A stretch of 42,034 nucleotides of DNA, from positions 1 through 42,034 of IMG/VR virus record IMGVR_UViG_3300030616_000010; one strand, written 5' to 3'. The stretch comes from a virus. Positions 4,427 through 22,976 of this stretch are shown here, piece after piece (within the stretch, counting starts at the first letter, position 1; each line of letters starts with the position of its first letter). Both the position numbers and the translations under genes were made by a program. The notes under the pieces are model-generated. The model made no database searches, had not been told where the DNA came from, and saw only the letters and a program-made list of their open reading frames with translations.

Positions 4427-5335
4427 TCAGTCGTCCGCCATGGCCTTTGCCGCCGCCCGGCAGGCCTCGACGGCGTCGAGCGCGGCCAGCAGCCGGCCGC
4501 GGTCCGCGTCCTCGACGACGTCCAGCGCGTCGGGCACGGCCACCGACGCGGCGATCACGCCCACGCAGGCCGTCGCCATCGCCCGGCACTCCGCCCGCTG
4601 GCACTGGTGGGCATCGAGGCACGCCTCCGCGTCGTAGTCCCACGCGCAGCCCCGTCCACACAGCGGGCAGAGGAACCCGCCCGGGATGGGCAGGGGTTCG
4701 GGTGGCGCCCCACCCGCCGACCCGCTGGCGTCGTCCGGAGCGTTCCGGAGTCCCGAGGTTTCGCTCCGCTCAACCTCGGGCTTTTCATCCGTTTCGGCGT
4801 CCCCCGCGTCGGGCGCGATCCCATCCGGAAAGCCCCGGGTTGAGTCTGCGAAACCCGGGGACTCTTGCCCCGGCGCGGGCGTCTCCGGCGGGTCGGCACG
4901 TGGGCCGCCGCGCTGCTCTCCATTCTCCTCGATCACCACGCACGGCAGCGGGTTGCTGAGCAGCCCGTCCTGCTGGAAGAGGAGTCCCCGGTAGACCACC
5001 CGGCGGACGTCCAGCCGCCGCAGCACGGTGTCCAGGTGGTGCTGTGCCCGCCGCTCTTCCCCCCGCCACTGCTCGTACATCTCCAGGGCCGCGAGCAGTT
5101 TCTCATCCGGCACGGCGGCCTCCATGTCCCGGCCGGGGTCGGTCGCGAGCTGCCCGCTGCGGCGGCGGTACATCGTCCACCGCGGATCGCCCGCCGCCCC
5201 GGCGTTGTACGCGACGGGCCGCCCATCCGCGGGCAGCGCCTGGACGAGTTCCGCCTCGTAGACCGCCAGCATGTCCCGCGCGGCCAGCAGCCCCTCGGCG
5301 GCCATGATGAACGATTGCCATTTCCCGTCGGTCAT
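4427..5335 (-). CDS. Hypothetical zinc-binding protein carrying an in-frame B element
   Basis: 302 aa. Residues 1-145 are a helical domain (MTDGKWQSFIMAAEGLLAAR; YEQWRGEERRAQHHLDTVLRRL). Residues about 148-205 are encoded by the palindromic element B3 read in frame (PGQESPGFADSTRGF, later EKPEVERSETSGL), so this part is an insertion and not part of the ancestral fold. It is followed by a Cys cluster, CPLCGRGC...CLDAHQCQRAEC, probably zinc-binding, and a helical end. The start at 5335 overlaps the stop of the gene before it by ATGA, which implies translational coupling. Function unknown. Confidence 0.75.
   Translation of the reverse strand: MTDGKWQSFIMAAEGLLAARDMLAVYEAELVQALPADGRPVAYNAGAAGDPRWTMYRRRSGQLATDPGRDMEAAVPDEKLLAALEMYEQWRGEERRAQHHLDTVLRRLDVRRVVYRGLLFQQDGLLSNPLPCVVIEENGEQRGGPRADPPETPAPGQESPGFADSTRGFPDGIAPDAGDAETDEKPEVERSETSGLRNAPDDASGSAGGAPPEPLPIPGGFLCPLCGRGCAWDYDAEACLDAHQCQRAECRAMATACVGVIAASVAVPDALDVVEDADRGRLLAALDAVEACRAAAKAMADD
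4737..4890. repeat. Palindromic element B3, inside a coding sequence
   Basis: Full inverted pair: GTCCCGAGGTTTCG...CAACCTCGGG on the left and GCCCCGGGTTGAG...AAACCCGGGGAC on the right. It lies wholly within the gene at 4427-5335 and keeps its frame open. The stems differ in sequence from other B copies but pair with compensating changes, which argues that the hairpin itself is conserved. Confidence 0.8.
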
Positions 5336-5529
5336 GTCGATCTCCCTTCGGCCGGGGCCTTGATCCGCCGGAGGCAGCGGATCGGCGTCATGATTCGCTG
5401 TCCGTCCGTGCTCGCCAGCTCGGCCAGGACGTTCCGCTTGGCATGTTTCCCGCGCCAGGTCGCCACGATCCGGCACAGCCGCCCGCGGAGATCCGGCCGG
5501 AGCCGCCCGACGTAGACGTGTGTCCACTC
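5332..5529 (-). CDS. Small hypothetical basic protein
   Basis: 65 aa with a GTG start at 5529, reading VEWTHVYVGRLRPDLRGRLC then RIVATWRGKHAKRNVLAEL. The start was chosen because GGGAG lies 8 bases upstream, the same spacing as in other genes that follow an A element. The frame stays open upstream to 5583, but that part only encodes the A element. The stop overlaps the next start by ATGA. No family recognised; the compact basic sequence could be a small SH3-like fold. Confidence 0.65.
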   Translation of the reverse strand, partial: EWTHVYVGRLRPDLRGRLCRIVATWRGKHAKRNVLAELASTDGQRIMTPIRCLRRIKAPAEGRST

Positions 5530-5542
5530 CACAAGCCGCACT

Positions 5543-5590
5543 CCCAAGAGGCGTCCCGATGTACATCGGGAGCCGCTAAACAATCGCCCG
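5543..5590. repeat. Palindromic element A1
   Basis: Flanks CAAGAGGCG and CCGCTAAACAATCGCCC surround the perfect 18-bp palindrome TCCCGATGTACATCGGGA (5554-5571). It lies directly upstream of the ribosome-binding site of the gene starting at 5529. Confidence 0.85.
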
Positions 5591-5604
5591 AGCCCGCGGC
5601 GCCA

Positions 5605-5735
5605 TTCGCGCCACCCCCCGGGGACGCAGCCCCGGGGCGTTCGTCCGTACGCTGCCCGTGCCCACTCCTAACGCCCGCCGGCTGCGTCCGGCGGGGTTGG
5701 CTCGGCAGGCGCCTGGGCATTCCCCGCGCCCGGGC
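5605..5735. repeat. Palindromic element C2 (full inverted pair)
   Basis: Left hairpin CCCCCGGGG-ACGC-AGCCCCGGGG, right hairpin CGCCGGCTGCGTCCGGCGG, then the C tail GGCTCGGCAGGCGCC. The right arm encodes the last residues (PAEPTPPDAAGGR) of the metallopeptidase gene, whose stop codon lies just beyond the hairpin. Confidence 0.8.
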
Positions 5736-6588
5736 TCGCCGCCCGCGCATGGAGGCCGACCCTCTTCAGGCGAGCCACCGTAAGTTCCGTGGCCGTTTCC
5801 GGGATGCCCTCGAACAGCGGCGCCGCCGGCTTTCCCGCCCCGAGCGGTCCGGTTTCGAGGACGTCGTAGAGTGCCCGGATCTGCGTATCCCACGCCCCCC
5901 AGCGGCCGACGACGGCGGAGAACTCCTCGACATCGTGTTTGCGGATCCGCCAGGCGTACGGCTGCTCGGACCAGCCCGCCTCGAGCGGCTTGAGCTCACC
6001 CCGCCGGCGGAGATAGCGGACGAGCGTCCGGTCGCCCTCGATCCGGTCGGTGATCTCGACGAGGTCCTCGCCGACCGCCTCGGCGAAAACGAGCAGCTTG
6101 TCCGCCCGCACCCACCGCCCGGCGATCGCCGCCGCGCAGTGGGAGAGTTCGTGGTCGATGACCGCGACGGCCTCGCGTTCCGCCTCCGCGGCGAACTCGG
6201 CGTCCGGCTCCCCGCACGGCAGCGGCCACGTCTCCGCGTTCAGCTCGATCACGAAGTCCACGTTTTCCAGGCCGAGCCGCATGAGCAGGTTGCTTTTCCG
6301 CGGCTTCCCGCGCGAGACGAGCCCGTCCGCGTCGGGCTTGAGTCCACCGCGGAAGAGCAGGCAGATTCGCGCCTCGCGGAGGTGCCGGTGGTCCGCGACC
6401 GCGTCGATGAGGTTCTGGGCGATCGCCCGCTCGACGTCGGAGGCGATCCAGAGCCCTTTTCCGGCGGCCTGCACGCCCTCGCGCGCCGGCGCGAGGACGT
6501 TCGGCATCTCCTTCCGCTCGGCGAGCATCTCCGCCACGCCGACCGTCTCGATCCCCGAATCCGTTTCCGTCGCCGTTGCTGTGGTCAT
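5668..6588 (-). CDS. Putative phage metallopeptidase (HExxH)
   Basis: 306 aa. His146-Glu147-Leu-Ser-His150 in VIDHELSHC forms a zinc-dependent HExxH motif, preceded by the strand ENVDFVIELNAETW. This combination is typical of the putative phage metallopeptidase family. The N-terminal 60 residues look like an extra helical part. The substrate is unknown; roles in host takeover or cell-wall passage are speculative. GGAGACCGCAC precedes the ATG, and the start overlaps the stop of the gene before it by ATGA. The C-terminal dozen residues (APAEPTPPDAAGGR) come from element C2, so the original end of the protein was probably replaced. Confidence 0.8.
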   Translation of the reverse strand: MTTATATETDSGIETVGVAEMLAERKEMPNVLAPAREGVQAAGKGLWIASDVERAIAQNLIDAVADHRHLREARICLLFRGGLKPDADGLVSRGKPRKSNLLMRLGLENVDFVIELNAETWPLPCGEPDAEFAAEAEREAVAVIDHELSHCAAAIAGRWVRADKLLVFAEAVGEDLVEITDRIEGDRTLVRYLRRRGELKPLEAGWSEQPYAWRIRKHDVEEFSAVVGRWGAWDTQIRALYDVLETGPLGAGKPAAPLFEGIPETATELTVARLKRVGLHARAASPGAGNAQAPAEPTPPDAAGGR

Positions 6589-6833
6589 GTGCGGTCTCCT
6601 TGAGCAGGGCGATTATCGCCCCGCTGTAGCTTCCGGCATTCCGCCCCCCGCCGGATCACGCGCGGGGCGATGGACCGGCGGGGCGGCAGCCGATGCCGGT
6701 GGCGGACCGCCGTGTAATGCCGCGCGACGAGCGTCCGGCTCATCAGCACGCTCGGCACCCGCCCTGGCGCGTAGTCCGGAGCCCACCACCGCCTGACGGG
6801 CACGCCGAACAGGCTGTCATAACTCACGTACAT
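6585..6833 (-). CDS. Small hypothetical basic protein
   Basis: 82 aa, MYVSYDSLFGVPVRRWWAPD followed by an Arg/His-rich remainder (RHYTAVRHRHRLPPRRSIAP). The ATG has GGGAG 11 bases upstream, and the stop overlaps the next start by ATGA; both support a real gene. It comes directly after an A element. No family recognised. Confidence 0.6.
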   Translation of the reverse strand: MYVSYDSLFGVPVRRWWAPDYAPGRVPSVLMSRTLVARHYTAVRHRHRLPPRRSIAPRVIRRGAECRKLQRGDNRPAQGDRT

Positions 6834-6844
6834 GGCGTCCCAAC

Positions 6845-6890
6845 TCCCAAGAGGCGCGCGTGCCGCGCGCCGTTAAACAATCGCCTAGCC
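6845..6890. repeat. Palindromic element A2
   Basis: CCAAGAGGCGCGCGTGCCGC with the right flank CGTTAAACAATCGCC. It sits between a stop codon (the TAG of the gene ending at 6885 lies in its end) and the ribosome-binding site of the gene starting at 6833. Confidence 0.85.
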
Positions 6891-7292
6891 GTCGCCGTCC
6901 TTATCCGCCCGGACTCCGCTGAGCGCCTGGACCTGCCGGCGGCTCAGCGCGAGCGACTTGAGCAGTTTCGCGTTTCGCCGGTTGACGGCGTCGGCGACCT
7001 GGCGGATGGAATCGAGCGCCTCGTTACAATCGGCGACGAGCCCGTCGACGGCCGCCTCGATCCGCCCGGCGGACTCCGCGAGCGTCGCCAGCGACCGGCT
7101 CAGCGAGCTCCGTTTACCGCCGCCGCCGCGCGGTCCCGTCCTGGGCGGGCCCGCGTACTGTTCCATCTCCGCCCGCCGGGCGGGCACGCCGGTTGTCAGC
7201 GCCTGGTAGTGTGCCGGGCAGAGTCCGCGGCATTTGACCTTCCGCCCGCAGCCGGGCACGTTGCAGGTCCGCTCCGTCGTCGCCTTGCCCAT
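6885..7292 (-). CDS. Zinc-binding protein with coiled-coil tail
   Basis: 135 aa. The N-terminus CNVPGC...KCRGLCPAHY has four metal ligands (three or four Cys plus His), a pattern seen in many short phage proteins that bind zinc. Residues about 60-135 are strongly helical (LATLAESAGRIEAAVDGLVA, IRQVADAVNRRNAKLLKSLA) and could form a coiled coil. The ATG has GGGAG 9 bases upstream, directly after element A3. Likely nucleic-acid binding; no specific role known. Confidence 0.7.
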   Translation of the reverse strand: MGKATTERTCNVPGCGRKVKCRGLCPAHYQALTTGVPARRAEMEQYAGPPRTGPRGGGGKRSSLSRSLATLAESAGRIEAAVDGLVADCNEALDSIRQVADAVNRRNAKLLKSLALSRRQVQALSGVRADKDGDG

Positions 7293-7300
7293 CGTCCCGA

Positions 7301-7346
7301 TCTCCCAAGAGGCCGGCGTACCGCGCGCCGTTAAACAATCGCCCGT
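7301..7346. repeat. Palindromic element A3
   Basis: CCAAGAGGCCGGCGTACCGC with CGCGCCGTTAAACAATCGCCC. A slightly diverged stem. It lies directly upstream of the Shine-Dalgarno sequence of the gene starting at 7292 and holds the stop of the gene before it. Confidence 0.85.
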
Positions 7347-7852
7347 GCCGTCGGCCGCTCATCCGAAAGCCCGATGTTGAGCGCAGCGAAACGTCGGGAC
7401 TCTTCCCCCGCGTCGGCCGTCTCCGGGCGCTCGACCGCACCGCGGCCGCGATCCCGCGGGTCCCCACCGCCCGCTCCCTGCTCCTCCCCCGCCACCCGGT
7501 ACGTCACGTGCCCCTCCGCATCGAGCACGCCGAGCAGTCCGGCCTCGTCGAGTTCCCTGAGTCGCCGCGCGCAGCCGGTCTCTTTTCCGCTGACGAGGTC
7601 GACGCAGCAGACGAGCGGTTCGCGTCCGCGTCCGAGCGTCCCGGCGCGGTCCTCGGCGCCGGGGCAGCTCCCGCCGTAGCGGTCGCGATGCCCGACGAAG
7701 TGCCGGCAGACCAGGCAGCAGTCCGCGGCGGTCTTGAGGAACCGCCGCGCGTAGGGCCCGTTGAGCAGCCGCTGCATGGGCGTCTCGCGTTTGTTTCGTT
7801 CGAGCGCCCGGTGGGTCCGCGGCCGTTTCCATGTACTGGCCGGGCATTTCAT
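7331..7852 (-). CDS. Cys-rich hypothetical protein ending in repeat-encoded sequence
   Basis: 173 aa. Residues about 25-85 hold a Cys/His-rich part (CCLVCRHFVGHRD; GGSCPG; LVCCVDLV; GCARRLRELD) that may bind zinc. Residues 90-128 are a short domain (EAGLLGVLDAEGHVTYRVAG). From about residue 129 on the sequence is encoded by elements B4 and A3 (GEESRRFAALNIGLS, ARAIV), so the tail is acquired. The start overlaps the previous stop by ATGA. No family recognised. Confidence 0.65.
   Translation of the reverse strand: MKCPASTWKRPRTHRALERNKRETPMQRLLNGPYARRFLKTAADCCLVCRHFVGHRDRYGGSCPGAEDRAGTLGRGREPLVCCVDLVSGKETGCARRLRELDEAGLLGVLDAEGHVTYRVAGEEQGAGGGDPRDRGRGAVERPETADAGEESRRFAALNIGLSDERPTARAIV
7352..7465. 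repeat. Palindromic element B4 (single arm plus tail)
   Basis: AAAGCCCGATGTTGAGCGC and GCGAAACGTCGGGACTC make the hairpin. The tail has CTCGACCGCACCGCGGCC and CGATCCCGCGGGTCCCC, as in other B right arms. It is read in frame as the C-terminus of the gene at 7331-7852. Confidence 0.8.
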
Positions 7853-8421
7853 GCGAGTCCCTCCCGGAGGAGCTGTCGCGTAATGGCCGGACGCCGGCCC
7901 CCGTGCCGACCTGTTGGCGCCGTGATCGCGTGCACAGTGGTCGCCGGCGCCGGGACCGCGCCGCCAGCCTGGCCGTCTTCGCCGGAGTCGCGCGTGCCGC
8001 GCGCCGTTAAACCATCGCCCGCGCTCGCGCAGACATCCGAAAAGCCCGATGTTGAGCGCAGCGAAACGTCGGGACTCTTCTCCCGCGCGGGTCGTCTCCG
8101 GGCGCCCGTCCCCACGGCGGCCCCGATCCCGCGGGTCCACACCTCCGCGTCCCCCTCCATCCCCGCCCAGGGCTGCGATCCCGACGTGCGGTTTCCCGTC
8201 ACGATCCGCTCCCCCCCGATCCGCGCGAAGAACCGCCCGATCGCCTCGACGCTGGTGACGCGATCCCGCCCGCACTTGATCGTCTCGAGCCGCACGCCGC
8301 CCTTGCCGTGGATGGCCCACCGCCAGACGGCGGCGGCCGCGGGCCCTTTGCCATCGGCCCGGCGGAGCATCCGCGCCGCCTCGGCGAGCGTGACGAGCTG
8401 TTCGTTCGGGAAGTCGATCAT
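7849..8421 (-). CDS. DUF1580-like protein with in-frame B and A elements
   Basis: 190 aa. Residues 1-80 (MIDFPNEQLVTLAEAARMLR, VWRWAIHGKGGVRLETIKCG, TSVEAIGRFFARI) match what I know as DUF1580, short excisionase-like winged-helix proteins described from planctomycetes; DNA binding is likely. Elements B5 and A4 follow in frame at about residues 94-145 (EKSPDVSLRSTSGF, GDGLTARGTRDS), then 40 residues of unknown origin. The element insertion appears to have extended a protein that is normally about 80-90 residues long. The stop overlaps the next start by ATGA. This gene is the best pointer to the host. Confidence 0.75.
   Translation of the reverse strand: MIDFPNEQLVTLAEAARMLRRADGKGPAAAAVWRWAIHGKGGVRLETIKCGRDRVTSVEAIGRFFARIGGERIVTGNRTSGSQPWAGMEGDAEVWTRGIGAAVGTGARRRPAREKSPDVSLRSTSGFSDVCASAGDGLTARGTRDSGEDGQAGGAVPAPATTVHAITAPTGRHGGRRPAITRQLLREGLA
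7985..8021. repeat. Palindromic element A4, inside a coding sequence
   Basis: GCGCGCGTGCCGCGCGCCG with right flank TTAAACCATCGCCC. Lacks the usual AAGAG start. Read in frame within the DUF1580-like gene as GDGLTARGTR. Confidence 0.85.
8035..8145. repeat. Palindromic element B5, inside a coding sequence
   Basis: AAAGCCCGATGTTGAGCGC and GCGAAACGTCGGGACTC, almost the same hairpin as B4 some 680 bases away, with tail CTCCGGGCGCCCG. Read in frame within the DUF1580-like gene. Confidence 0.85.
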
Positions 8422-8444
8422 CTCACCGGGTCTTCCCTTCCGGG

Positions 8445-8606
8445 CTAGAGCGCCAGGGCACACTGCGGGCAGAGGACCTCCCCGGTGGCCCGATCCCAGC
8501 AGAACCAGCACATCGGGCCCCGATGACAGCGATCGCAATACAAGCTCTCCTCGCCCCGCAGCAGCGGAATTCCGCAGATGCAGCACGTCTCCGGCACCTC
8601 CGCCAT
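8445..8606 (-). CDS. Small zinc-finger protein
   Basis: 53 aa with four CxxC/CxxxC-type pairs: CCICGIP, CDRCHRGPMC, CWFC and CPQC. This implies two bound zinc ions in a ribbon or treble-clef fold. The chosen ATG at 8606 begins right at the first conserved part; the frame is open further upstream but without similar content. A perfect hairpin lies 15 bases before the start. Likely a nucleic-acid- or protein-binding regulator; no family assigned. Confidence 0.65.
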   Translation of the reverse strand: MAEVPETCCICGIPLLRGEESLYCDRCHRGPMCWFCWDRATGEVLCPQCALAL

Positions 8607-8620
8607 CCGGCCCGGGCCCC

Positions 8621-8645
8621 GCGGCGGTGGACCCTCCACCGCCGC
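8621..8645. promoter_or_regulatory. Perfect 11-bp stem hairpin before a zinc-finger gene
   Basis: GCGGCGGTGGA-CCC-TCCACCGCCGC, 25 bases with a 3-base loop, 15 bases upstream of the start at 8606. It has no T-run on either side, so it is not a classical terminator. It may affect translation of the gene or mark the border of the low-complexity tract. Confidence 0.5.
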
Positions 8646-8689
8646 GGTGGCGGAACCGAGGCGAGTTTCGTGTGCTCGTCGGTGAATGC

Positions 8690-9453
8690 CCGGGCCGTCT
8701 TCCGGTCTGCGTGGGCGTGCGTTCACGTCACCCGTTCTCCTGTGCCGTTGCTTTGCACTGCTCCGCATCGCCGTTGCGTCGCACCGCTCTGCCACTGCTC
8801 CGCTACGCGGTACCCAGCTCGGCAGTGCCTTCGCTCAGCACCGCTTCGCCCGGCGCCGCCACTGCCACGCCATGCCTCGCCCGGCCGCCGCTGTGCCGTG
8901 CTCCGCATGGCTTCGCCATCGCCACGCCCTGCCCCGCTTGGCCTTGCCGCCGCTGTGCTTCGCGCTGCACAGCCCCGCAGTGCCGTTGCCATGCACCGCG
9001 TCGCACGGCGTAGCCACTGCCAAGCGCCGCGTCACCTTGCGCTGCCATGCCACTGCCGAGCGCTGCCTCGCTGGGCCGTCGCCCTGCTGTGCTGTGCCTT
9101 GCGGAGCGTTGCCGTACTCAGCGCTGCTCTGCCGCCGCTGTGCTTCGCGCTGCGCGGCCCGGCAGTGCCGTCGCCAGGCTGCGCATCGCCCTTGCCACGC
9201 CAAGCGGAGCAACGCCCAGCTCTGCTCCGCCCTTGCTGTGCCGCGTGGAGCACAGCCCCGCAGTGCCGTTGCCAGGCACTGCCTCGCCCAGCACCGCAGT
9301 GCCGTTGCCGCGCCAGGCAACGCCTCGCCCGGCCCTGCCGCCGCTTCGCTTCGCGGGGCCCTGGCAGCGCAACGCACCGCACAGCCCCCGCGCCGCCCAG
9401 CGGTGCCATGCTCGGCCATGCCGCCGCTCCGCCTGGCTTGGCGTCGCCGCCGC
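8690..9453. repeat. Low-complexity GGCA/TGCC-rich tract without a gene
   Basis: About 760 bases made of degenerate, irregular copies of a short unit (minus strand GGCAACGGCA, GGCGGCAAGGC; plus strand CCGTTGCCA, GCCGCCGCTGTGC). A longer unit with CGCAGTGCCGTTGCC recurs at about 8975, 9265 and 9297. The open frames in it code only for monotonous Ala/Arg/Gly/Cys strings and are not believable genes. The tract follows the conserved gene at 9454-10164. It could be an RNA, a recombination or replication site, or a slippage-driven expansion; nothing in the sequence decides this. Confidence 0.7.
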
Positions 9454-10164: not shown

Positions 10165-10358
10165 GGGAGTCCTCTCTGCGGCCGTCCGCATCGCGGCGCG
10201 GCCAGGTGTGATGTGGGCGGAGATGTGCGTGCCCGTCCATGGGAGTCCTCGATATCGTTCCGTCTGTCGCGGGCGGCCGGCGGCTCGCCGCCGCCGTCCG
10301 TCCGATGCCCCCGCCGGCCGTGTCCGCCCGGCGGGAGCGCCGCATCAGGGAGATTGCT

Positions 10359-10670
10359 CTAGCCGGCGGTTATCACGGCAGCACACTCGCCGGTTGTGCC
10401 TGGAATCGAAGAGGCGCGCGTGCCGCGCGCCGTTAAACCATCGCCCGTGCCGCAGCCCGATTCCGCGGCGGGGGCCCGCTCGATCAGCTCGGCGGCCAGC
10501 TCGTCGAGCCGGCCTGCGTTGGCGAGCCGGCGGATCCGCTCGCGTCTCGCGAGGACGTTCGCGCGATGCCGCCGCATGGCGAGGCGGAAGAAGCCAAGCG
10601 CCCGCGTGACGTGGCCGGGGTCGGTCCCCTCGCGCCGGTCCGCGATCATGGCTCGTTCCGAAGTCTTCAT
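10359..10670 (-). CDS. Hypothetical helical protein with repeat-encoded tail
   Basis: 103 aa. The first 70 residues are basic and helical (RALGFFRLAMRRHRANVLAR, LANAGRLDELAAELIERAP). The tail from about residue 74 (GDGLTARGTRAS and beyond) is encoded by element A5. The start overlaps the stop of the methylase gene by ATGA, so the two are probably coupled. No family recognised. Confidence 0.6.
   Translation of the reverse strand: MKTSERAMIADRREGTDPGHVTRALGFFRLAMRRHRANVLARRERIRRLANAGRLDELAAELIERAPAAESGCGTGDGLTARGTRASSIPGTTGECAAVITAG
10407..10448. repeat. Palindromic element A5, inside a coding sequence
   Basis: AAGAGGCGCGCGTGCCGCGC with the right flank CGTTAAACCATCGCCC. Read in frame as GDGLTARGTRAS at the C-terminus of the gene at 10359-10670. 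Confidence 0.85.
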
Positions 10671-11800: not shown

Positions 11801-11884
11801 AGCCAGTCTCCGCAGAACGCGTCGCTGTCGTTGAGGTAGACTCCGCCGGTCCCGGAGCGTGTATCCGCCCGCCGGCCCGCCGGC

Positions 11885-11950: not shown

Positions 11951-11967
11951 GGGCGGCGAGCCGTTTG

Positions 11968-12020: not shown

Positions 12021-12032
12021 TCCCCGAGGTCC

Positions 12033-12389
12033 TCACCGCCTCGCTCCTTCCGCCGCCCGGGCGCGATCGACCATCCGTCCGTGTTCCCGCTGCGCCTCGG
12101 CCCGCGTGGCGGACCAGGCCTCCAGACCGACGAGTTTCGCCGGCCCGTCGAGCACTCTCGTCCGGTAGAGCAGGACCCGCCCGCCGGCGGCCAACGCCGG
12201 CCGCCGCCCGCAGAACGCGGTGACGACGAGGAGGTCCCCGCTCTCCGTCCAGTCGACGGTAAGCTCCCGCGCCCCGACGCGGCGGATCCACGCCGCCCAC
12301 TCCCACGGCTCGCAGGGGACCGGCAGCCCGCTTTCGAGCCGGTAGCAGCGTCCGCCGTCCGCCCGCGTTTCCGATCCGCGGCGTGTCAT
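12033..12389 (-). CDS. Hypothetical small protein
   Basis: 118 aa, starting MTRRGSETRADGGRCYRLES. The middle part is beta-rich (ELTVDWTESGDLLVVTAFCG, GGRVLLYRTRVLDGPAKLVG) and the C-terminus is helical and charged. The start overlaps the previous stop by ATGA. Upstream GGGAGG at 7 bases supports it. No family recognised. Confidence 0.65.
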   Translation of the reverse strand: MTRRGSETRADGGRCYRLESGLPVPCEPWEWAAWIRRVGARELTVDWTESGDLLVVTAFCGRRPALAAGGRVLLYRTRVLDGPAKLVGLEAWSATRAEAQREHGRMVDRARAAEGARR

Positions 12390-13667: not shown

Positions 13668-13890
13668 GGCGACATTCGGGCCGACCCCCCGGGCAGCAGC
13701 CCGGGGGCGTTCATGTGCCCGCCACCCATGCCCTCTGGAAACAGCCCTCTGCCGCCCGCGCTTTCTGGAAACACCCCTCGGCCAACCGCTCGCTCTCCCA
13801 ACGCCCCGGGGCTGCTGCCCCGGGGGTCGGCTCGCCCGTCGCCTTGGCTCTGCCCCGGCTCGGCTCGCCCGTCGCCTTGGCTCTGCCCCG
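13668..13890. repeat. Palindromic element C4 (full inverted pair) with tandem tail
   Basis: Left hairpin CCCCCCGGGC-AGCA-GCCCGGGGG and right hairpin CGCCCCGGGGCTGCTGCCCC flank about 100 bases. The tail TCGGCTCGCCCGTCGCCTTG is present twice with a 33-bp period (13827 and 13860), ending next to the stop of the HTH gene. Confidence 0.85.
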
Positions 13891-13896: not shown

Positions 13897-14130
13897 TCAT
13901 ACCGCCGTCTCCTGCCGGGGCGTCTCTGCCGGCCAGCACTCGGCCGGGTCGACGTCGAGCGCCTCGGCCAGTTCCGTCACACCGCGGACGCCCGCCTGCT
14001 TGCCCGAGAGAATCTGCGAGACGCTCCCGGTGGACAGATCGGCCCGCGTGGCGAGCTTGCGGACCGACCAGCCCTTGATCCGCCTGGCTCGTCTGAGGGG
14101 CTCCGGATTGAACGGAACTTCGCTTGCCAT
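13897..14130 (-). CDS. XRE-family HTH regulator
   Basis: 77 aa. A Cro/CI-type helix-turn-helix spans about residues 10-65: LRRARRIKGWSVRKLATRAD then LSTGSVSQILSGKQAGV, ending LAEALDVDPAE. It is transcribed leftward from a strong sigma70-type promoter just upstream and is divergent from the regulator at 14261. Its position at the head of the early side suggests that it controls the switch between two gene programmes. The start ATG is preceded by GCGGAG at 9 bases. Confidence 0.85.
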   Translation of the reverse strand: MASEVPFNPEPLRRARRIKGWSVRKLATRADLSTGSVSQILSGKQAGVRGVTELAEALDVDPAECWPAETPRQETAV

Positions 14131-14148
14131 AGTTCCAACTCCGCTTCC

Positions 14149-14177
14149 GTTATAGGCAAGCCGCCTTGTCCCGTCAA
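14149..14177 (-). promoter_or_regulatory. Sigma70-type promoter for the leftward HTH gene
   Basis: On the minus strand, -35 TTGACG (14177-14172) and -10 TATAAC (14154-14149) are separated by 17 bases, close to the consensus. The start codon of the HTH gene lies about 20 bases beyond the -10 box. It is the best promoter seen in the window and lies in a local AT-rich patch. Confidence 0.75.
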
Positions 14178-14180
14178 GGC

Positions 14181-14210
14181 CCTTTGTTCATTTTTTTTCA
14201 CTTTCGTTCA
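14181..14210. promoter_or_regulatory. Three phased 10-bp repeats, candidate operator
   Basis: Three tandem 10-base blocks, each ending in TTCA on the plus strand: CCTTTGTTCA, then a T8 block, then CTTTCGTTCA. The spacing is one helical turn, so a protein could bind all three on one face. They begin just upstream of the -35 box of the leftward promoter and lie upstream of the rightward gene. They are candidate binding sites for one of the two HTH proteins. Confidence 0.5.
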
Positions 14211-15541: not shown

Positions 15542-15657
15542 CGTCTTGCTCCCTGTTCTGGTTGTTTCCGTGTCCTTCATCCTGCCCCAATTATACCGCC
15601 GACGTTATAAATGTCAAGGGGGAATCCGGGAAAGTTTCCGTTGTTTTTCGGGAGGCC

Positions 15658-15752
15658 CCCACGTGCCGGCCGGCCGGCCGGCTCATCGCGTGTGCGGAAT
15701 CCCACCGATTCGCGGACTCATCAGTGGGCTTTCCACCCCGCTCGCCGCCCAC
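15658..15752. repeat. Palindromic element B7 (left arm)
   Basis: CGGAATCCCACCGATTCGCG then GACTCATCAGTGGGCTTTCC. The stem is different from most B copies (CCCACcGAT/ATCaGTGGG) and shared with B15, showing sub-families with co-varying stems. Confidence 0.85.
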
Positions 15753-15764
15753 GCCCTCTTCCAA

Positions 15765-15825
15765 CGCCGCGGGGCTGTCCCGATGTACATCGGGAGGGGG
15801 TCGGCTCGGCGGTCGCCCGGGCTCT
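15765..15825. repeat. Palindromic element C5 with swapped loop
   Basis: A C-type arm (AACGCCGCGGGGCTG ... GGGGGTCGGCTCGGC) whose loop holds the 18-bp perfect palindrome TCCCGATGTACATCGGGA (15778-15795), the same as in A1 and A7. Confidence 0.85.
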
Positions 15826-15873
15826 CTCGGCGTCCCCCCGTCCCGTCCTGCGAAGCGTCCCCGCGAAGCAGGA

Positions 15874-18429
15874 TTACGAGTTGAAGATCTCGTGGATTTC
15901 CGGCCCGACGTACCGGATGCAGCCGGCCGAGTCAACCTGCACCCGCCGGACGACGAAGACCATCTCCATCGCGGCCGTGTAGACGATCCGGCAGCACATC
16001 CAGAACTCGACCCCGTCGTCGTCATCCCAGTCCGACCGCGTCCACGTGTCCGCGTAGACCGTCTCGTCACCGTCGCCCGGCGCCGAGGCCGGGTCGAGCG
16101 TGAGCGGGTCCGCGTACGTCCCGCCGTGGATCACGTCCACCAGCACGCCCTCATCCGTCCCGAACGGCTGGTAGGCGACCACGTCGCCCTTCAGCGCCTG
16201 GACGAAGTCGGTGCTGCGGCCCGTGGGCGTCACCGCGTAGAGCGTCAGGTCCGTGTCGGTGTCCACTTCGCCGCCCGCGTCGTTGCACGGGTGGGCGGTG
16301 ACGCTGTTTCCGCTCTCCCAATCCTCCGTGAGGATCGCGAACCGCACCCACCGCCCGTCGACGCTGGGGTGTTCGGCGACCCGAGCGGGCATCCCATCGG
16401 CCGGCGCGAGCCCCCCGCCCTGCGCCCCGCCACCCCAACGCCCCGGGGCTGCTGCCCCGGGGGTCGGCCGCCCGGCGCCTTGGCGTCGTCCGGCCTCGAT
16501 CCCCACCGCGTCGAGCTCCCCGAAATCGGTCCGCCAGGTCGTGGTGAGCCGCTCGAAGTCGTACTCCACGCTCGTCACGAGCGCCCCGATCGAGTACCGC
16601 GTCCGCCCGACCTGGAGCTCGTCGAGCAGCGCCCCGAGCGGGGCCGGCTTGGCCCGGACGACCGGCTCCCGATACGCGATGGCCCGCCGCTTTCGTCCGT
16701 ACCACGCGGCCGCGAGCCGCAGCACGCTCCGCAGGCGGTCCACGTCGTTACGGATGACCATCGTGTTCGGCGCGATGGCCCAGCGCCCATCCGTTTTGAG
16801 GTCGAGGATCGTCCCGACCGCGACAGCGTGGACCTGGGCGTCCGGCACGTCGAGCACCAGTTCCCGCGGCACGTCGTTTCCGTCGCGGGCCGGCAGGTCC
16901 CGCGCGACGCGGAGCCGCACGTCGGTCTCCCACGCGACGGTCGCGTACGTCGTCCGCCAGTCCCGATCCGGCGGGAAGACGCTGTCGGTCGCGTTGCCAA
17001 AGTCCTGCTCCGCGAATCGGTAGTTGTCCGCGACGCTGATCCGCACGCCGAACGTCCCCGGCAGGACGTGCAGGTGGGCCGGCGGCGTGGGGAACTCCGC
17101 GAGCGGGTCGCTCTCCGGCCGGTCGATGAACTCGTAGCGGTAGGCCTTGCCATCCTCCGTCTGCGTCGCCGTCCGCGTCACCGCGAACGGGGCGAGGTAC
17201 TCCCGCTCGGCGGCCGTCCGCTTGTTGGTCTCCACGGGCTGGCCGCTGGAGTAGTCCACGCCGGCCAGCAGCGGCAGCTCGGCGAGCGGCCCCTTGCCGG
17301 GCGTGAACATCTTCCCCGCCTTGAATTTCATCTCGCCGTTGTCCCCGAACGCCGGCACGATCGTCGTGAATTCCGCGTCCCGGCACGAGAAGCGGGAGTA
17401 CACGTCGCGGTACTTTTCCGACCGCCGGGCCGCGTCGTTGAGCACGGCGTCCCCGAGATCGATCGAGTTGTATTCCGCCTGGAGGTCCTCGCTCCAGGCC
17501 CCCGTGAGCGACTTGCGGAGATTGAGCGTGTCGCAGACCACCACGTGCCCGCCGCGGACGACGATCCGGTCGTAGCGGTCGCCGCTCTCCGATCGCACGG
17601 CGGTCTCGCTGCCGTCGATCGCCGCGTGGCGGATCGTCTCGCTGTTGCCCTCGAGCCCGCAGGCGCCGGCCTCGGCCGCCGACAGCACGCTGCGGACCGC
17701 GACGGTCAGCTCGTTTTTCCGGAAATCCACGAACCACGCCGCCCCCCGCCGGCGGTCGATGACCATGCGGAGCGCCGCGTGGAGCGTCCGCGGGCACGGC
17801 CAGTTCTCCGCGACCTCCGCGAGGTTGGCGACCTGCCCGGCGAGCCGCAGCCCCAGCGCCGGCGGCCCGAAGCGGACGACGAAGTACTCGGCCACGTCGG
17901 CCGCCGTCCAGAGCTTCCCGTCGCGGCTGAACACGTAGGTCCCGCCGATTTTCCGCTTGGAGCGGTTGCCCGTGAGCCCGCCGCCGCCGCGTCGCGGCCC
18001 GTTGAACGCGAGCCGGCGTTCGATGAGGTCGGCGCCGCCGGCCAGCTCGACGTAGCTCCCGGTGATGTGCGTGCGGGCGAGGAGGTGTTCGATCCCGCAG
18101 GCGGTGAGGTCCTGGTCGCCGCTTGTGATCGCGGCGTTGTGCGGCGTATCGGTCTGCCCGGTGACCACGCCGAGCCAGAGCGTTTCCTCGCTCTCGCGGC
18201 GGAGGACCCGGATGAAGCGGTTTCGGAGCCCGTCCTCGTACGGCCCGAGATCGGCCGTGGCCCCGCCGCGTGTGAGGGTCCCGTACTCGACGCGGAACTG
18301 GGCCGTGGGGATCGCGGGCGCCACCGCGGCGACGGCCCGGACGCAGTAGACGTCGTCGAGCGTCTGCCAGGCCGCGCCCCAGCGGCGTCGCGTCTGCACG
18401 ATCGGCTGTTTCGGCTCGTAATCGGTCAT
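15874..18429 (-). CDS. Tail hub / large distal tail protein with in-frame C element
   Basis: 851 aa, MTDYEPKQPIVQTRRRWGAA. Length, beta-rich content and the position after tape measure and distal tail genes suggest a central tail hub or baseplate protein; no family could be assigned with certainty. Residues about 645-668 (GRPTPGAAAPGRWGGGAQ) are encoded by element C6 in frame, between the domain ending LTTTWRTDFGELDAVGIEAG and a C-terminal domain (RWVRFAILTEDWESGNSVTA to the end) that would face outward. The start has AGGACCAGAA upstream. The long open frame on the opposite strand is a shadow. Confidence 0.7.
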   Translation of the reverse strand: MTDYEPKQPIVQTRRRWGAAWQTLDDVYCVRAVAAVAPAIPTAQFRVEYGTLTRGGATADLGPYEDGLRNRFIRVLRRESEETLWLGVVTGQTDTPHNAAITSGDQDLTACGIEHLLARTHITGSYVELAGGADLIERRLAFNGPRRGGGGLTGNRSKRKIGGTYVFSRDGKLWTAADVAEYFVVRFGPPALGLRLAGQVANLAEVAENWPCPRTLHAALRMVIDRRRGAAWFVDFRKNELTVAVRSVLSAAEAGACGLEGNSETIRHAAIDGSETAVRSESGDRYDRIVVRGGHVVVCDTLNLRKSLTGAWSEDLQAEYNSIDLGDAVLNDAARRSEKYRDVYSRFSCRDAEFTTIVPAFGDNGEMKFKAGKMFTPGKGPLAELPLLAGVDYSSGQPVETNKRTAAEREYLAPFAVTRTATQTEDGKAYRYEFIDRPESDPLAEFPTPPAHLHVLPGTFGVRISVADNYRFAEQDFGNATDSVFPPDRDWRTTYATVAWETDVRLRVARDLPARDGNDVPRELVLDVPDAQVHAVAVGTILDLKTDGRWAIAPNTMVIRNDVDRLRSVLRLAAAWYGRKRRAIAYREPVVRAKPAPLGALLDELQVGRTRYSIGALVTSVEYDFERLTTTWRTDFGELDAVGIEAGRRQGAGRPTPGAAAPGRWGGGAQGGGLAPADGMPARVAEHPSVDGRWVRFAILTEDWESGNSVTAHPCNDAGGEVDTDTDLTLYAVTPTGRSTDFVQALKGDVVAYQPFGTDEGVLVDVIHGGTYADPLTLDPASAPGDGDETVYADTWTRSDWDDDDGVEFWMCCRIVYTAAMEMVFVVRRVQVDSAGCIRYVGPEIHEIFNS
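16430..16495. repeat. Palindromic element C6, inside a coding sequence
   Basis: AACGCCCCGGGGCTGCTGCC then CCGGGGGTCGGCCGCCCGGCG. Read in frame within the tail hub gene as a Gly/Pro/Ala-rich linker between two domains. Confidence 0.85.
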
Positions 18430-18444
18430 TTCTGGTCCTGCCCC

Positions 18445-18650
18445 CCGCGCCGGCCTCCTGCCGCCGCCCGGTGCGTTCCGGAATCCCCACCTTTCGCTCC
18501 GCTCAAGGTCGGGCTTTCAATTCCGTCCCGCGCCCGCGCTCGTTTGAAAGCCCGGGGATGAGTCCGCGAATCCCCGGGATTCTTCTCCCGGCTCGGACGT
18601 CTCCGGGCGCTCGTACCCACGGCGGCCGCGATCCCGCGGGTCCCCTCCCC
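18445..18650. repeat. Palindromic element B8 (full inverted pair)
   Basis: Left arm GGAATCCCCACCTTTCGCTC...CAAGGTCGGGCTTTC; right arm AAAGCCCGGGGATGAG...GAATCCCCGGGATTC; tail with CTCCGGGCGCTCGTACCC and GCGATCCCGCGGGTCCCC. It fills the gap between the two genes. Confidence 0.85.
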
Positions 18651-18660
18651 TCCCCGCTCA

Positions 18661-19899
18661 TCACACGCTCGCCAGGTCCCCGGTCTGGATCCGCGCCGGC
18701 CCGTCGCCGGTCTGCTTGAAGACGATCGGGTTCGAGATCGTCACCGCGTTGTTCGGGTCGTGCAGCTCGCCGCTCCCGTAGACCGTGAGCGTCGCGATCG
18801 TCACGCCCCGCGTGTTGTTTTCCGCCGAGACCCGCGCGTCGGGCCCGATGTTCGCGGCGGTGACGGTATCGTTGCAGTCCAGATAGCTCGTCCCGCCATC
18901 GGACCAGTCGTGCAGCGCCTCGATATTCCCTTCCGTTTGCGTGTAGTTGCTCCCGCTGCCGGAGCGTTTGACCGTCCCGGCCGCGGAGCCCATGGTGATC
19001 GTCCCGCCGGTCTGGTTGATGTCGGGCGCGTCGGCCCCGTTGACCTGCGTGACGGACGGCCCGATCTCGATCGTCCCGCCGGAGACGTTGAACGTGGTGC
19101 ACTCGGCCGCCCCGTCCCCGGCGAGCGACGCGAACGCCATCGTGCAGGCCGTGGAGTCCGGCGTGAAGTTCAGCTCCACATTGTCCAGCCCCTTGATGTT
19201 GAGCGGCCAGGAGCCGCTCCCGCCGCCGGACCCGCAGTGCGTGACGTTGATCTCGTCGGCGTTGTCCACGTCGAGGAACCACGTCCCGGTCCCCGCGAAC
19301 GCGACCTCCTTGGGCGCGGCGTTTCCCACGTCGATCTGGAGGAATCGGCTGGCGGACCCGCCGTTCATCGCGCATCCGGCCTCGACGGTGAAGCTGTTGA
19401 GCGCGTTCCCGGTGGCGTCCACCCCGTACATCGTCCCGGTGGCGTCGGCCGGGATGATGACGTCGTCGCCCGCGGCCGGCGCCGCCCCGGTGGACCAGTT
19501 GAGCACGCTGGACCAGTGCCCGGGCCCGTCGACCGCGGTGCTGCTGGCATCGGTGAGCGTTTGCGTATCGGCCACGCCGCCATCGACCGCGGCGGCCGTG
19601 ACGTAGAACGGCGTGCCGGCCGTATCGGCGGTGATCGTGACGTGCGTCGTGTCGTCCGTCGTGGTGACTTCGTTCCAGGGCGCGTACCCGGCCGTCTTGG
19701 CGGCCGCGGCGGCCGCGTGGAGTCCGGCCGTGACGTTCGCGACGGTCGCGGCCGTGGCCGTGAACGAGATCGTGTAGACGTCGCCCGCGGAGTTTTCCAG
19801 CTTGAGCGTGAAGACGTCGCCCACTTCCACGTTCGCGGGCGTCTCCGTATTGACCTGCGCCACTCGCCGCGCCCGGCCCTGGTAGATGTTCGTCGCCAT
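18661..19899 (-). CDS. Beta-rich tail-associated protein
   Basis: 412 aa from the ATG at 19899 (GGAG 6-9 bases upstream). The N-terminus MATNIYQGRARRVAQVNTET and VGDVFTLKLENSAGDVYTIS is followed by a long Thr/Ser/Gly/Asp-rich part with repeated short strands (TFNVSGGTIEIGPSVTQVNG; INQTGGTITMGSAAGTVKRS), typical of beta-solenoid or fibre-like virion proteins. It lies between the distal tail protein and the hub. Probably a tail fibre, tail decoration or adhesin. The exact fold is not certain. Confidence 0.65.
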   Translation of the reverse strand: MATNIYQGRARRVAQVNTETPANVEVGDVFTLKLENSAGDVYTISFTATAATVANVTAGLHAAAAAAKTAGYAPWNEVTTTDDTTHVTITADTAGTPFYVTAAAVDGGVADTQTLTDASSTAVDGPGHWSSVLNWSTGAAPAAGDDVIIPADATGTMYGVDATGNALNSFTVEAGCAMNGGSASRFLQIDVGNAAPKEVAFAGTGTWFLDVDNADEINVTHCGSGGGSGSWPLNIKGLDNVELNFTPDSTACTMAFASLAGDGAAECTTFNVSGGTIEIGPSVTQVNGADAPDINQTGGTITMGSAAGTVKRSGSGSNYTQTEGNIEALHDWSDGGTSYLDCNDTVTAANIGPDARVSAENNTRGVTIATLTVYGSGELHDPNNAVTISNPIVFKQTGDGPARIQTGDLASV

Positions 19900-19924
19900 C
19901 GCTCCGCTCTCCTGCAAGAGCCGG

Positions 19925-20060
19925 GCAAGCCCGGCATGCCATCCGCGCTACCCCCCGGGGATGCAACCCCGGGGCGTTCACTCCTTCCGGCGCCCGCGCC
20001 GTCTTCCAACGCCCGCCCGTTGCATCGGGCGGGGTTGGCACGGCAGGCGCCGGCGGCCCG
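19925..20060. repeat. Palindromic element C7 (full inverted pair)
   Basis: Left hairpin ACCCCCCGGGGATGC-AACCCCGGGG, right hairpin CGCCCGTTGCATCGGGCGG, then GGCACGGCAGGCGCC. Both arms are inverted relatives. Confidence 0.85.
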
Positions 20061-20066
20061 CTCCCC

Positions 20067-20438
20067 TCACTCCGTCGCCCTGACCACCCACTGCCCGATA
20101 ACCAGGCTCTTGGCCGCCCCCTCGTGGATCACGTTCCGCACTTCCACCGGCGTATACGCCAGGACCTGGACGTTCGCGTGCGCGATCCCGAACGCGTCGT
20201 CCACAGTAACGAGCGTCCCGAGCAGCGCCTGGCAGCTCGCGATCGCCGCGTCGCTGGCCGCGGCATCGTTGTGGATCGAGTAGCTCACGAGCGGTACCTC
20301 GGGCGCCTTCTCGCCGAGATGCCGCGTGGGCGTCCCATCCTCTCCGGCCCGATCGAGCGACTCGACCCGCACGCCCGGCGGTACCGGCCGCCCGTCGAGC
20401 ACATCGAACTGGATCCCGCCGACGCGGTTGGCGGCCAT
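20067..20438 (-). CDS. Small distal tail protein (putative)
   Basis: 123 aa, MAANRVGGIQFDVLDGRPVP. Short mixed alpha/beta protein without recognised domain. Its start overlaps the stop of the tape-measure gene as TGATG, so it is coupled to tail production. The place right after the tape measure suggests a distal tail or baseplate component. Confidence 0.65.
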   Translation of the reverse strand: MAANRVGGIQFDVLDGRPVPPGVRVESLDRAGEDGTPTRHLGEKAPEVPLVSYSIHNDAAASDAAIASCQALLGTLVTVDDAFGIAHANVQVLAYTPVEVRNVIHEGAAKSLVIGQWVVRATE

Positions 20439-21832
20439 CAGTCACCCCCCTCGACGTGGACGTTCCGTCGCGTCGTCTGCGCGTTGAGCGCGCGGATGAG
20501 CGCATAGATTGCCGCGACGAGCCGGTCCTTTCCGCCGCTCGCCCCGGCCGCCAGGTCCATTGCCTTGTCCATCGTCGGAGATTGCGCCCAGGCCTCGGCC
20601 GCGGACCGGAAGCCGGGGAACTCGCCCCACGACTCGATCCCGTAGGCCGCGAACCGCCGGAAGATGTTGCCGCCGCCGCCGCGGACCCGCCCGGCGATAT
20701 TCGCGAAAGCGGCGTCCATAATGAGATCCGCCCGGCCGCCGGCGGTCTCGCCCATTCGTTGGGCCTGCCGTTTCCGTTCGGCCTCGCGGAGCTCGGGAAC
20801 GCTCTGGGCGAGTTGGACCTTCCGCGCGAGCAGGTCCCCGCGTCCGGTGGCGGCCCCGGCCGCCTCGATCTGCTCCTGGTACTGCCGGAAGAGCTCCCAG
20901 TTCCGCGACAGCGTGATATACCCGGCCCTCGCCCGCTGTTCCGGCATGAATCGCCGGAGCTGCCGTTCGGAGAGTTGGCGGCGCATGAGGGTTTCCATCT
21001 TGCCGGCGAACCCGGCCCCCTCGACGCCGCCCTTGCCGAGCGATTCGGCGAGCCGCATCATCCGCGTGCGAGCCATCTGGATCGGCATCGTCCCGCCGAG
21101 CACGCCGACGCCGGCGAGCGTCTCCGGCAGCGTCCCGCCGATCTGGGCCATGGAGGGCGCGGGGATCTGGGCCGCCTCGCCCATCTCGCGCATGCCGAGC
21201 CCGCTGACCGGCGCGGCTCCCGCGATGAGTTGGTTGAAGATCCGCCGGATCGCATCCTTGGGCAGGCCGAACCCCTGCTGGAGCCGCCGCGCCCCGGTGA
21301 TGAGTTCCCCGGGCCCCTCGGGCGTCCCGGTGATCCGGAAGAGGTCCTTGACCGTGGGCGCGAGTCCGAGCTGCCCGGCGCTCTTGAGCTGGAAGGCGAT
21401 ATCGGCCGCCGGCCCGAGGGCCATGCCGGCCCCGCGTCCGCGGACGCCCGCGATCCCCTTGGCCATCTTCACGAGCCGGTTCATTTCCGCCGGCGACTCC
21501 GCGACCTGGCTGAGCCGGCGGAGTGCGGGCTCGGCCTCCATGATCCGCTCGCCCCGCTGGCGTCGGAACGCGGCGTCGGCCTCGGCCAGCCGCTTGATTC
21601 CCGCCGTGACGGCCGCGACGGCCGCGCCGACGGAGGCGTACTGGAGGACCATCCCCTTGAGTTCCCCCGTGACGGCCCCGAGCGCCTGTTTTTGCTTACG
21701 CCCGCCGCGTGCGACCGCGTTGGCGTTCCGCATGGCCTGGAGCTCGACCTTTTTCTGGGCGTCGGAGAGCGCGAGGAAGGCCCGGACCGCTCCGGCCTCT
21801 TTCCCGTCGAGTGTCAGGACCACATCGGCCAT
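20438..21832 (-). CDS. Tape measure protein
   Basis: 464 aa. Helical, Ala/Gly/Arg-rich with a hydrophobic segment near residues 60-80 (MVLQYASVGAAVAAVTAGIK), which is typical of tape measure proteins that fix tail length and pass into the host membrane. It follows the frameshifting chaperone genes, exactly where a tape measure is expected. By the usual about 0.15 nm per residue, the tail would be short, near 70 nm. The start has GGGAG 6 bases upstream. Confidence 0.75.
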   Translation of the reverse strand: MADVVLTLDGKEAGAVRAFLALSDAQKKVELQAMRNANAVARGGRKQKQALGAVTGELKGMVLQYASVGAAVAAVTAGIKRLAEADAAFRRQRGERIMEAEPALRRLSQVAESPAEMNRLVKMAKGIAGVRGRGAGMALGPAADIAFQLKSAGQLGLAPTVKDLFRITGTPEGPGELITGARRLQQGFGLPKDAIRRIFNQLIAGAAPVSGLGMREMGEAAQIPAPSMAQIGGTLPETLAGVGVLGGTMPIQMARTRMMRLAESLGKGGVEGAGFAGKMETLMRRQLSERQLRRFMPEQRARAGYITLSRNWELFRQYQEQIEAAGAATGRGDLLARKVQLAQSVPELREAERKRQAQRMGETAGGRADLIMDAAFANIAGRVRGGGGNIFRRFAAYGIESWGEFPGFRSAAEAWAQSPTMDKAMDLAAGASGGKDRLVAAIYALIRALNAQTTRRNVHVEGGD

Positions 21833-21857
21833 ATCGCTCTCCCGCGTACTGCGTCGC

Positions 21858-21945
21858 GGCCCGCGTGCCGGCCCGCCGGCCGGCCCCGGGCGTCTCCGGA
21901 GTCCCGAGGTTTCGCGGACTCAACCTCGGGCTTTTCGGCCGTTCA
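21858..21945. repeat. Palindromic element B9 (left arm)
   Basis: GGAGTCCCGAGGTTTCGCGG then ACTCAACCTCGGGCTTTTC. It lies between the end of the tail chaperone extension (stop at 21943-21945) and the tape measure gene's neighbourhood. Confidence 0.85.
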
Positions 21946-22149
21946 CGTTCTCACGGCGGCCCGCCGCGCGAGGCCTCGCAGTCCGCCGGCGAGGCCGGCG
22001 AGTGCCGCGAGGACCTCCGCGTGCCGCCGTTCGTCATCATCCTGCTCTCGGCAGAGCATCTCGACCTCCGCCCGGCTGGGCGCGTGGCTCTTCATCACGC
22101 CGGCCCGCCAGAGCCGGTAGGTTTCCCATTCTCTGGACCGTTTTTTTTT
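21943..22149 (-). CDS. Tail assembly chaperone, -1 frameshift extension (gpT-like part)
   Basis: About 68 codons in the -1 frame relative to the upstream gene, read after slippage on the A9 run at 22141-22149. Sequence SREWETYRLWRAGVMKSHAP, EVEMLCREQDDDERRHAEVL is charged and helical and has no start of its own in a good context. Joined to the preceding gene it would make a protein of about 344 aa, as with lambda gpG and gpGT, which bind the tape measure during tail assembly. Confidence 0.75.
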   Translation of the reverse strand, partial: KKKRSREWETYRLWRAGVMKSHAPSRAEVEMLCREQDDDERRHAEVLAALAGLAGGLRGLARRAAVRT

Positions 22150-22976
22150 CCGTCGCCGGCGGCGGCCTGGCAGAGCGCGACGAACCGATCGACGTCCGCG
22201 ATCGCACGGACGCACGCCCGGAGGCACTCGCTCTCGAGCGCCCCGATGGCGAGCAGCTCGCGCACCCCCACGCGGTAGTTGACGCCGAGCGCCGCCGCCA
22301 CCACCTCGATCGCCCGCCCCTCGGTGACTCCGGAGCCGCCCTCTTGAAAGCCCGATGTTGAGTCCCGGAGGGCCGAAACGTCGGGATTCTTCTCCCGGTC
22401 CGCCCCCGACCCCGGCTCTTCTTCTTCCCCCACCGCCGCCCCCACATACGCCGCGAACAGCTCCCCGGTGGCGTCCCACAGTTCCTGGTAATCCGCCCGC
22501 ACCCGTTGCGTGGCCGCGCCCGTCTGCGGATCGAGCCCGTACGCCAGCGGCAGGTTGGTCCCCTCGGGGAACAGCCGGACGCACGGCAGATGCCACTCGT
22601 TCCCATCGGCGAGCCGCACATCCCGCCCGCTGACGCGTTCCGTCCTGGCCAGCTCTTCCGGCGTGGGCCGATCGCCCACGTAGTACCCGATCCAGTATTC
22701 CGAACGCCCGCCGGCTGCGTCCGGCGGGGTCGGCTCGGCGGTCGCCTCGGCTATCTCCGCGTTCCCCGCGCGGAACCACTCCTGCTCATCCGGCGCGAAC
22801 CGCAGCCGTGCCCGCGGCCCCTGGTCCGCGGCGAGCAGGACTCCGCCGCTGCCACCGGGCCCGTTGCCGACCGGCCCGGCGCGGACGCCGCAGCGGAGGA
22901 TCTTTGCGAGCCCCGTGTCGCGGAGGACCTCTGCCGAGGCCGCCCCCGCGTTCGGGATGAAGTACAGGAACTGCAT
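22095..22976 (-). CDS. Tail assembly chaperone, zero-frame product (gpG-like), with two in-frame elements
   Basis: 293 aa, MQFLYFIPNAGAASAEVLRD. It lies between tail tube and tape measure genes. Residues about 74-90 (PTPPDAAGGR) come from element C8 and about 187-211 (EKNPDVSALRDSTSGF) from element B10, both in frame. Near the end, GGA AAA AAA AAC forms an A9 slippery run (22141-22149), and a long open -1 extension follows. The zero frame ends about 18 codons later. The start has GGAGAAGAAA before the ATG. gpG-like proteins are usually about 140 aa; the elements and a different N-terminal domain explain part of the extra length. Confidence 0.7.
   Translation of the reverse strand: MQFLYFIPNAGAASAEVLRDTGLAKILRCGVRAGPVGNGPGGSGGVLLAADQGPRARLRFAPDEQEWFRAGNAEIAEATAEPTPPDAAGGRSEYWIGYYVGDRPTPEELARTERVSGRDVRLADGNEWHLPCVRLFPEGTNLPLAYGLDPQTGAATQRVRADYQELWDATGELFAAYVGAAVGEEEEPGSGADREKNPDVSALRDSTSGFQEGGSGVTEGRAIEVVAAALGVNYRVGVRELLAIGALESECLRACVRAIADVDRFVALCQAAAGDGKKNGPENGKPTGSGGPA
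22141..22149 (-). promoter_or_regulatory. A9 slippery sequence for -1 ribosomal frameshifting
   Basis: Nine A in a row on the coding strand, read as GGA-AAA-AAA-AAC in the zero frame. A long homopurine run at the end of the first of two overlapping tail genes between tail tube and tape measure is the classical place for programmed -1 frameshifting in siphoviruses. Confidence 0.75.
22344..22415. repeat. Palindromic element B10, inside a coding sequence
   Basis: GAAAGCCCGATGTTGAGTCC ... CGAAACGTCGGGATTC with CTTCTCCCGG. Read in frame in the tail chaperone gene. Confidence 0.85.
22705..22755. repeat. Palindromic element C8, inside a coding sequence
   Basis: AACGCCCGCCGGCTGCGTCC then GGCGGGGTCGGCTCGGC, close to the right arm of C2. 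Read in frame as PTPPDAAGGR in the tail chaperone gene. Confidence 0.85.

Follow-up and report, generated by a model that had tools for sequence, protein, structure and literature searches.

Three families of short palindromic elements in a tailed phage genome, with copies translated in frame in unrelated genes

The DNA analysed here (the window) is a complete virus record of 42,034 bases from an uncultured tailed phage with 72% GC. We consider it probable that short, non-autonomous palindromic elements of three families, REP/BIME- or RPE-like in character, have colonised this genome and that their in-frame copies have been tolerated. Searches with nhmmer, using profiles built from the copies (cut-off E<=0.01), recover 49 of them: 18 in family A, 20 in B and 11 in C, labels that differ from those in an earlier note on this DNA. 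Twenty dinucleotide shuffles of the window gave 0, 2 and 0 matches in total. The modules are GC-rich and ~35-130 nt long; together the elements span 3,505 bases, ~8% of the window, and a copy occurs roughly every 0.86 kb.

Every module forms a hairpin whose feet are conserved. The stem sequence differs between copies, and pairing is kept by compensating changes. Family A has the layout AACG-hairpin-GGGGTCGGC; family B reads AAAGCCC-stem-TGAG..GCGAA-stem-GGGAYTC and has two alternative 3' tails; family C is a hairpin followed by GTTAAACNATCGCCCG. In the family A stem, 92.6% of cells are paired, changes on both sides occur (n=21), and covariation is 0.42, compared with 0.11 when shuffled and at most 0.21 when slid. 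Over the 11 family B arm pairs listed, 86 of 88 pair cells are standard, with several pair types at five positions. In some elements, the loop encloses a second, nested hairpin, for example TCCCGATGTACATCGGGA or a longer form. In the mRNA orientation, single elements fold modestly better than shuffles, and no more than that. At 13810-13890, the outer tail of A7 stands in tandem (33-nt unit, 2.4 copies), a possible trace of module growth.

The minus strand carries nearly all genes of the window. Matches to PHROGs identify large and small terminase subunits, portal, head maturation protease, major head protein and head closure. Among Pfam families, there are matches to a phage metallopeptidase (PF18894), a radical SAM protein and a DUF1580 protein (7849-8421, minus strand; PF07618, E 5e-10). 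The DUF1580 family is associated with planctomycetes. The terminase is only ~25-31% identical to its best matches in viral and phage collections. The gene set is our own, built from open reading frames and third-position GC (GC3), and is not an annotation. Two other features of the window may be recorded here. ARAGORN reports a tRNA-Tyr with the unusual anticodon ATA in a lower-GC stretch at 14094-14185 (minus strand), which may be a pseudo-tRNA or an attachment-site remnant. Positions 8771-9328 hold at least seven degenerate direct repeats of ~79 nt with a GC..TGCC pattern, a 31-nt sub-spacing and a weak coding signal; they form a further repeat family, unrelated to A, B or C.

Many copies of the elements are paired in two-module units with their 5' ends inward: A-/A+, B-/B+, B-/A+, or C followed by A+ or B+. 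In A and B units, the modules lie 21-88 bases apart, and the sequence between them usually includes a common core similar to CGCCGCCCGCGCYCTCTTCC. The composites are internally inverted, and the outer tails of their left and right modules differ. Such an inverted two-module layout with a spacer is that of BIMEs and REP dimers (PMC3733652). A typical intergenic unit, B11(-)/B12(+), fills the gene junction at 18449-18647. Further units located by nhmmer are A10(-)/A11(+) at the junction 19921-20053, B19(-)/B20(+) at 36986-37186, the mixed composite B10(-)/A8(+) at 15652-15829, in which the A8 loop holds TCCCGATGTACATCGGGA, and the mixed C7/B16 unit at the junction 24018-24197 (plus strand).

Where do the elements lie relative to genes? 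In the late region, 19 of 24 copies are intergenic, though intergenic DNA makes up 12% of that region (binomial 1e-13); these figures depend on our gene set. In-gene copies are hence a minority, and the emphasis that the earlier note placed on them has to be shifted to the intergenic majority. Element sequence accounts for ~47% of late intergenic bases. Perhaps, then, the hairpins work as signals in RNA or DNA at gene junctions, serving mRNA processing or stability, termination or protein binding, and the in-gene copies are incidental? This regulatory role is the main rival to colonisation, and intergenic position could equally reflect it. Most non-overlapping late junctions are occupied, directly after stop codons and before starts, and compensation conserves the stems. 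However, the elements use both strands and occur as inverted pairs, while nearly all late genes run one way. Intrinsic terminators were rejected, as hairpin plus T-run sites number 8 against 7.8 expected from shuffles, and a search of Rfam gave no family above threshold for the elements. Nor was a comparable repeat family found in a homologous phage, G010 (43 kb, 57% GC; L103/L104), which has terminase, portal, protease, head and tail genes in common with the window. We regard a signalling origin as unlikely and continue with colonisation by mobile elements as the preferred reading.

The clearest in-gene copies lie in a 293-aa gene (22095-22976, minus strand; GC3 frame) that follows the putative major tail gene and is, by gene order, a candidate tail assembly chaperone. 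Two copies are internal to it, both on the plus strand. A12 (22703-22759; nhmmer, translation) is read as EIAEATAEPTPPDAAGGR, and B14 (22343-22406; nhmmer, linker-length comparison) is read in the gene frame as ADREKNPDVSALRDSTSGF / REKNPDVSALRDSTSGF. Homologues were found in a 46-kb phage, G001 (L093/L102), at 35% identity and in G010 at 23%. The first linker, between the conserved D..W and P.PE.L motifs, has 36 residues in the window versus 22 and 23 in the relatives; the homologues are thus 13-14 residues shorter here, and the excess is the peptide of the A12 hairpin core. The second linker, from a conserved helix to AL..NYR, has 50 residues in the window versus 36 in G001 and 20 in G010. 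Subtracting the 21 codons of B14 leaves ~29 residues. In G001, this same linker contains a translated palindrome, GCCCTTGACAGTGAGTCTCAAGGGC, of ~8-9 codons, read as ALDSESQGQ, without which 27-28 residues remain. Because the G001 palindrome is translated where the window has B14, unrelated palindromes occupy one linker in two phages. This suggests that the second linker (window 22343-22406; L102 3499-3523) is a generally tolerant site. AlphaFold2 of the 293-aa protein with three sequences gave only a low-confidence model (mean pLDDT 39).

At the level of sequence comparison, A12 and B14 add segments that homologues in two further phage lineages lack; the comparison covers these two copies, at 23-35% identity. 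The earlier note had described the elements as inserted in frame inside genes, a description at odds with any conservation of the segments in homologues. In the 293-aa protein, the homologues lack both segments, and the description holds for A12 and B14. It does not extend to A9 (16436-16492, plus strand; nhmmer, translation), which is internal to an 851-aa tail protein gene (15874-18429, minus strand) and read as GRRQGAGRPTPGAAAPGR. That protein is hub-like by position and 33% identical to an ORF of G001; a direct search of phages and IMG/VR gave no homologue, and the only one is that of G001. Since the linker of the G001 homologue is similar in length, A9 is translated but not demonstrated as an insertion. 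The remaining in-gene copies had no homologue suitable for such a comparison. The names "tail hub" and "tail chaperone" given earlier to these proteins fit their positions, and the identities are taken from gene order only.

Further copies were re-read in the gene frame, and the claim that elements are translated in protein genes was borne out in several of them. The 302-aa protein gene (4427-5335, minus strand), whose translation has a Cys-rich C-terminal part (CPLC...C) and which matched nothing in family searches, contains the inverted composite B5(-)/B6(+) in the order B6-spacer-B5 (4705-4929). The composite is internal and read through entirely, giving ~75 aa, and the same GC3 frame runs on both sides of it. 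In the DUF1580 protein, C4 and B8 (7979-8143, plus strand; nhmmer, translation) are read through as GDGLTARGTRD and EKSPDVSLRSTSGF. For the C3 and B7 pair (7301-7466, plus strand), a Cys-rich protein ending at 7331 has B7 and a portion of C3 as its tail. Three A copies on the plus strand lie at C-termini: A4 (5670-5726) in the PF18894 metallopeptidase, A17 (35005-35061) in the portal protein, which ends PTPGDTTPGR* and whose C-terminus differs in relatives, and A18 (37631-37687) in a 98-aa gene (37630-37926), which ends PTPPDATGGR*. Two C copies belong to short, less certain ORFs. C5 (10406-10455, plus strand), near the end of a 103-aa ORF (10359-10670), gives GDGLTARGTRASS / GDGLTARGTRAS in a frame supported by GC3; C6 (12419-12470, plus strand), near the end of an ORF ending at 12386, gives GDRLTARGTRASS / GDRLTARGTRAS.

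All five in-gene A copies (A4, A9, A12, A17 and A18) are read in one common frame, PTPxxxxxGR. The recurring peptides noted earlier in unrelated proteins are thus seen again, this one being common to five unrelated genes. In A4, A17 and A18, the protein ends R-stop, the stop codon lying in the foot of the element. Three of the C copies also have a frame in common. Given three nearly equally open frames, our arithmetic puts the chance of five of five A copies falling in one frame at ~0.012. On this basis the choice of frame may be selected, but the numbers are small. That the frames are free of stops, a point made in the earlier note, is uninformative: random 60-nt pieces of the window are open in 4.9 of 6 frames, as expected because the window has 72% GC.

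Could the translated segments be ordinary functional parts of proteins that merely resemble each other? They are in frame, and the genes that hold them have an intact coding signature. However, the same DNA also lies between genes and in both orientations, the peptide is common to unrelated proteins, and the homologues of the 293-aa protein are without the segment. We therefore consider this explanation very improbable, and the colonisation reading remains the one that we favour.

The distribution of the elements elsewhere bears on where they came from. The G001 palindrome has the form GCCCTTGAC-N7-GTCAAGGGC (25 nt, ~10 copies in L094-L096, e.g. L095 12716-12740) and is unrelated in sequence to A, B or C. 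At least two of its copies lie just upstream of start codons, and it is either REP-like or operator-like. Because G010 has no such family and G001 has a different one, the A, B and C elements appear to be lineage-specific. A profile search of 102 other loci gave no match to A or B, the C and B cores had no match in IMG/VR, and blastn of a tail region against phages also had none. A search of plasmids with the elements gave weak actinobacterial matches only. The nested hairpin GTCCCGATGTACATCGGGA also occurs in two other viral contigs, there without A, B or C flanks. A viral contig, L098, holds four TCCCGAT/ATCGGGA-type hairpins with varying loops (1630-1647, 3215-3231, 3741-3758 and 4021-4038), at least two of which are embedded in longer, imperfect palindromes that have repeats resembling AGGCTTCAGGCC.

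Perhaps the elements originate as repeats in the host chromosome and entered the phage by recombination, without any spread within it? The phage encodes a DUF1580 protein, of a family tied to planctomycetes. Planctomycetes and Verrucomicrobia have REP-like repeats (PMC3733652). However, the C core gave only six scattered, chance-like single matches in 84,980 species genomes, and spread in place is a simpler account than nearly 50 recombinations into junctions. Such an origin seems to us improbable, somewhat more so than a signalling role and far less so than a chance resemblance of protein parts.

How, then, might colonisation have proceeded? As no other carrier of A or B was found, we infer both the spread and the source of the elements. 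Neither movement, nor a target duplication, nor an empty DNA site was seen, and the anatomy fits non-autonomous palindromic elements that would be moved in trans. Copies would have spread through a hairpin-recognising activity supplied in trans, by a host transposase or by recombination; a RAYT-type (Y1 HUH) transposase (PF01797) is absent from the 42 kb record. Insertions inside genes would mostly have been purged, and the surviving in-gene copies would be those in flexible linkers or at C-termini, in a frame that gives a neutral Pro/Gly/Ala peptide and not an Arg-rich one.

A stronger form of this idea is that self-spreading elements resident in the phage repeatedly supply ready-made neutral peptides (PTPPDAAGGR, EKSPDVSLRSTSGF, GDGLTARGTRAS), in preferred frames, to virion and assembly proteins at their linkers and C-termini, with unrelated palindromes of related phages using the same protein sites. 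We offer this tentatively, as a possibility less probable than not. The occurrence of the elements in virion proteins was put too strongly in the earlier note and comes down to the portal C-terminus and the internal copy A9, itself only a possible insertion; the tail-assembly protein may not be part of the virion.

In-frame palindromic repeats are an established phenomenon in bacteria. In Rickettsia, RPEs lie within ORFs (PMC2229807, PMC10969869). REPs occur in the ORFs of many species, including dimers encoding 20-30 residues; their ends often supply a stop codon, and in recB the REPs of two species are found at approximately the same position (PMC3733652). The comparison with Rickettsia drawn in the earlier note is apt as an analogy, but in-frame palindromic repeats are not confined to that genus and are listed for further bacteria, the verrucomicrobium O. 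terrae among them (PMC3733652). For phages, we found no precedent of translated palindromic repeats in the part of the open-access literature that our search covered. Almost 50 copies in a 42 kb phage, some in structural or assembly genes, provide a sharp test of element spread and of tolerant protein sites. Phages would appear as possible vehicles by which REP-like elements pass from host to host, and the linker shared by two phages offers a case in which convergent tolerance of palindromic inserts can be tested directly.

Four known systems invite comparison. ERIC, YPAL and other bacterial MITEs are likewise non-autonomous repeats that are occasionally translated (PMC2229807); MITEs are marked by terminal inverted repeats and target site duplication. 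The composites here are internally inverted and have unlike outer tails. The palindromes of G001 are likewise dispersed, and one of them is translated within the corresponding linker of a homologous protein, but the family differs in sequence, copy number (~10) and length (25 nt), and its members could also be operators. Like REP, BIME and REPIN sequences (PMC3733652), the elements are short palindromes whose stems vary with compensation. They lie mostly between genes that run the same way, often form inverted dimers (20-100 bp spacers), including mixed (hybrid) ones, provide stop codons at their ends and have some copies in ORFs. They are also high-copy and mainly intergenic, as REPs are. They differ in that three families share one 42 kb phage and the modules are larger, with nested hairpins. 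A GTAG tag lies near 4 of 49 copies, below background; a CGTC tag lies near most copies, but its background in this GC-rich window is 88%, so that there is no enrichment. The feet are instead AACG, AAAGCC and GTTAAAC. Without GTAG/CGTC enrichment and with no RAYT in the record, the elements are not formal REPs. The likeness to RPEs is an analogy of behaviour, and we claim no membership by sequence. As in RPEs, palindromic repeats are fused in frame in unrelated genes, with conserved peptides, as tolerated inserts; RPEs are 105-146 bp long and belong to bacterial chromosomes, whereas here the carrier is a phage and the ~35-130 nt GC-rich modules are mostly intergenic (PMC2229807, PMC10969869).
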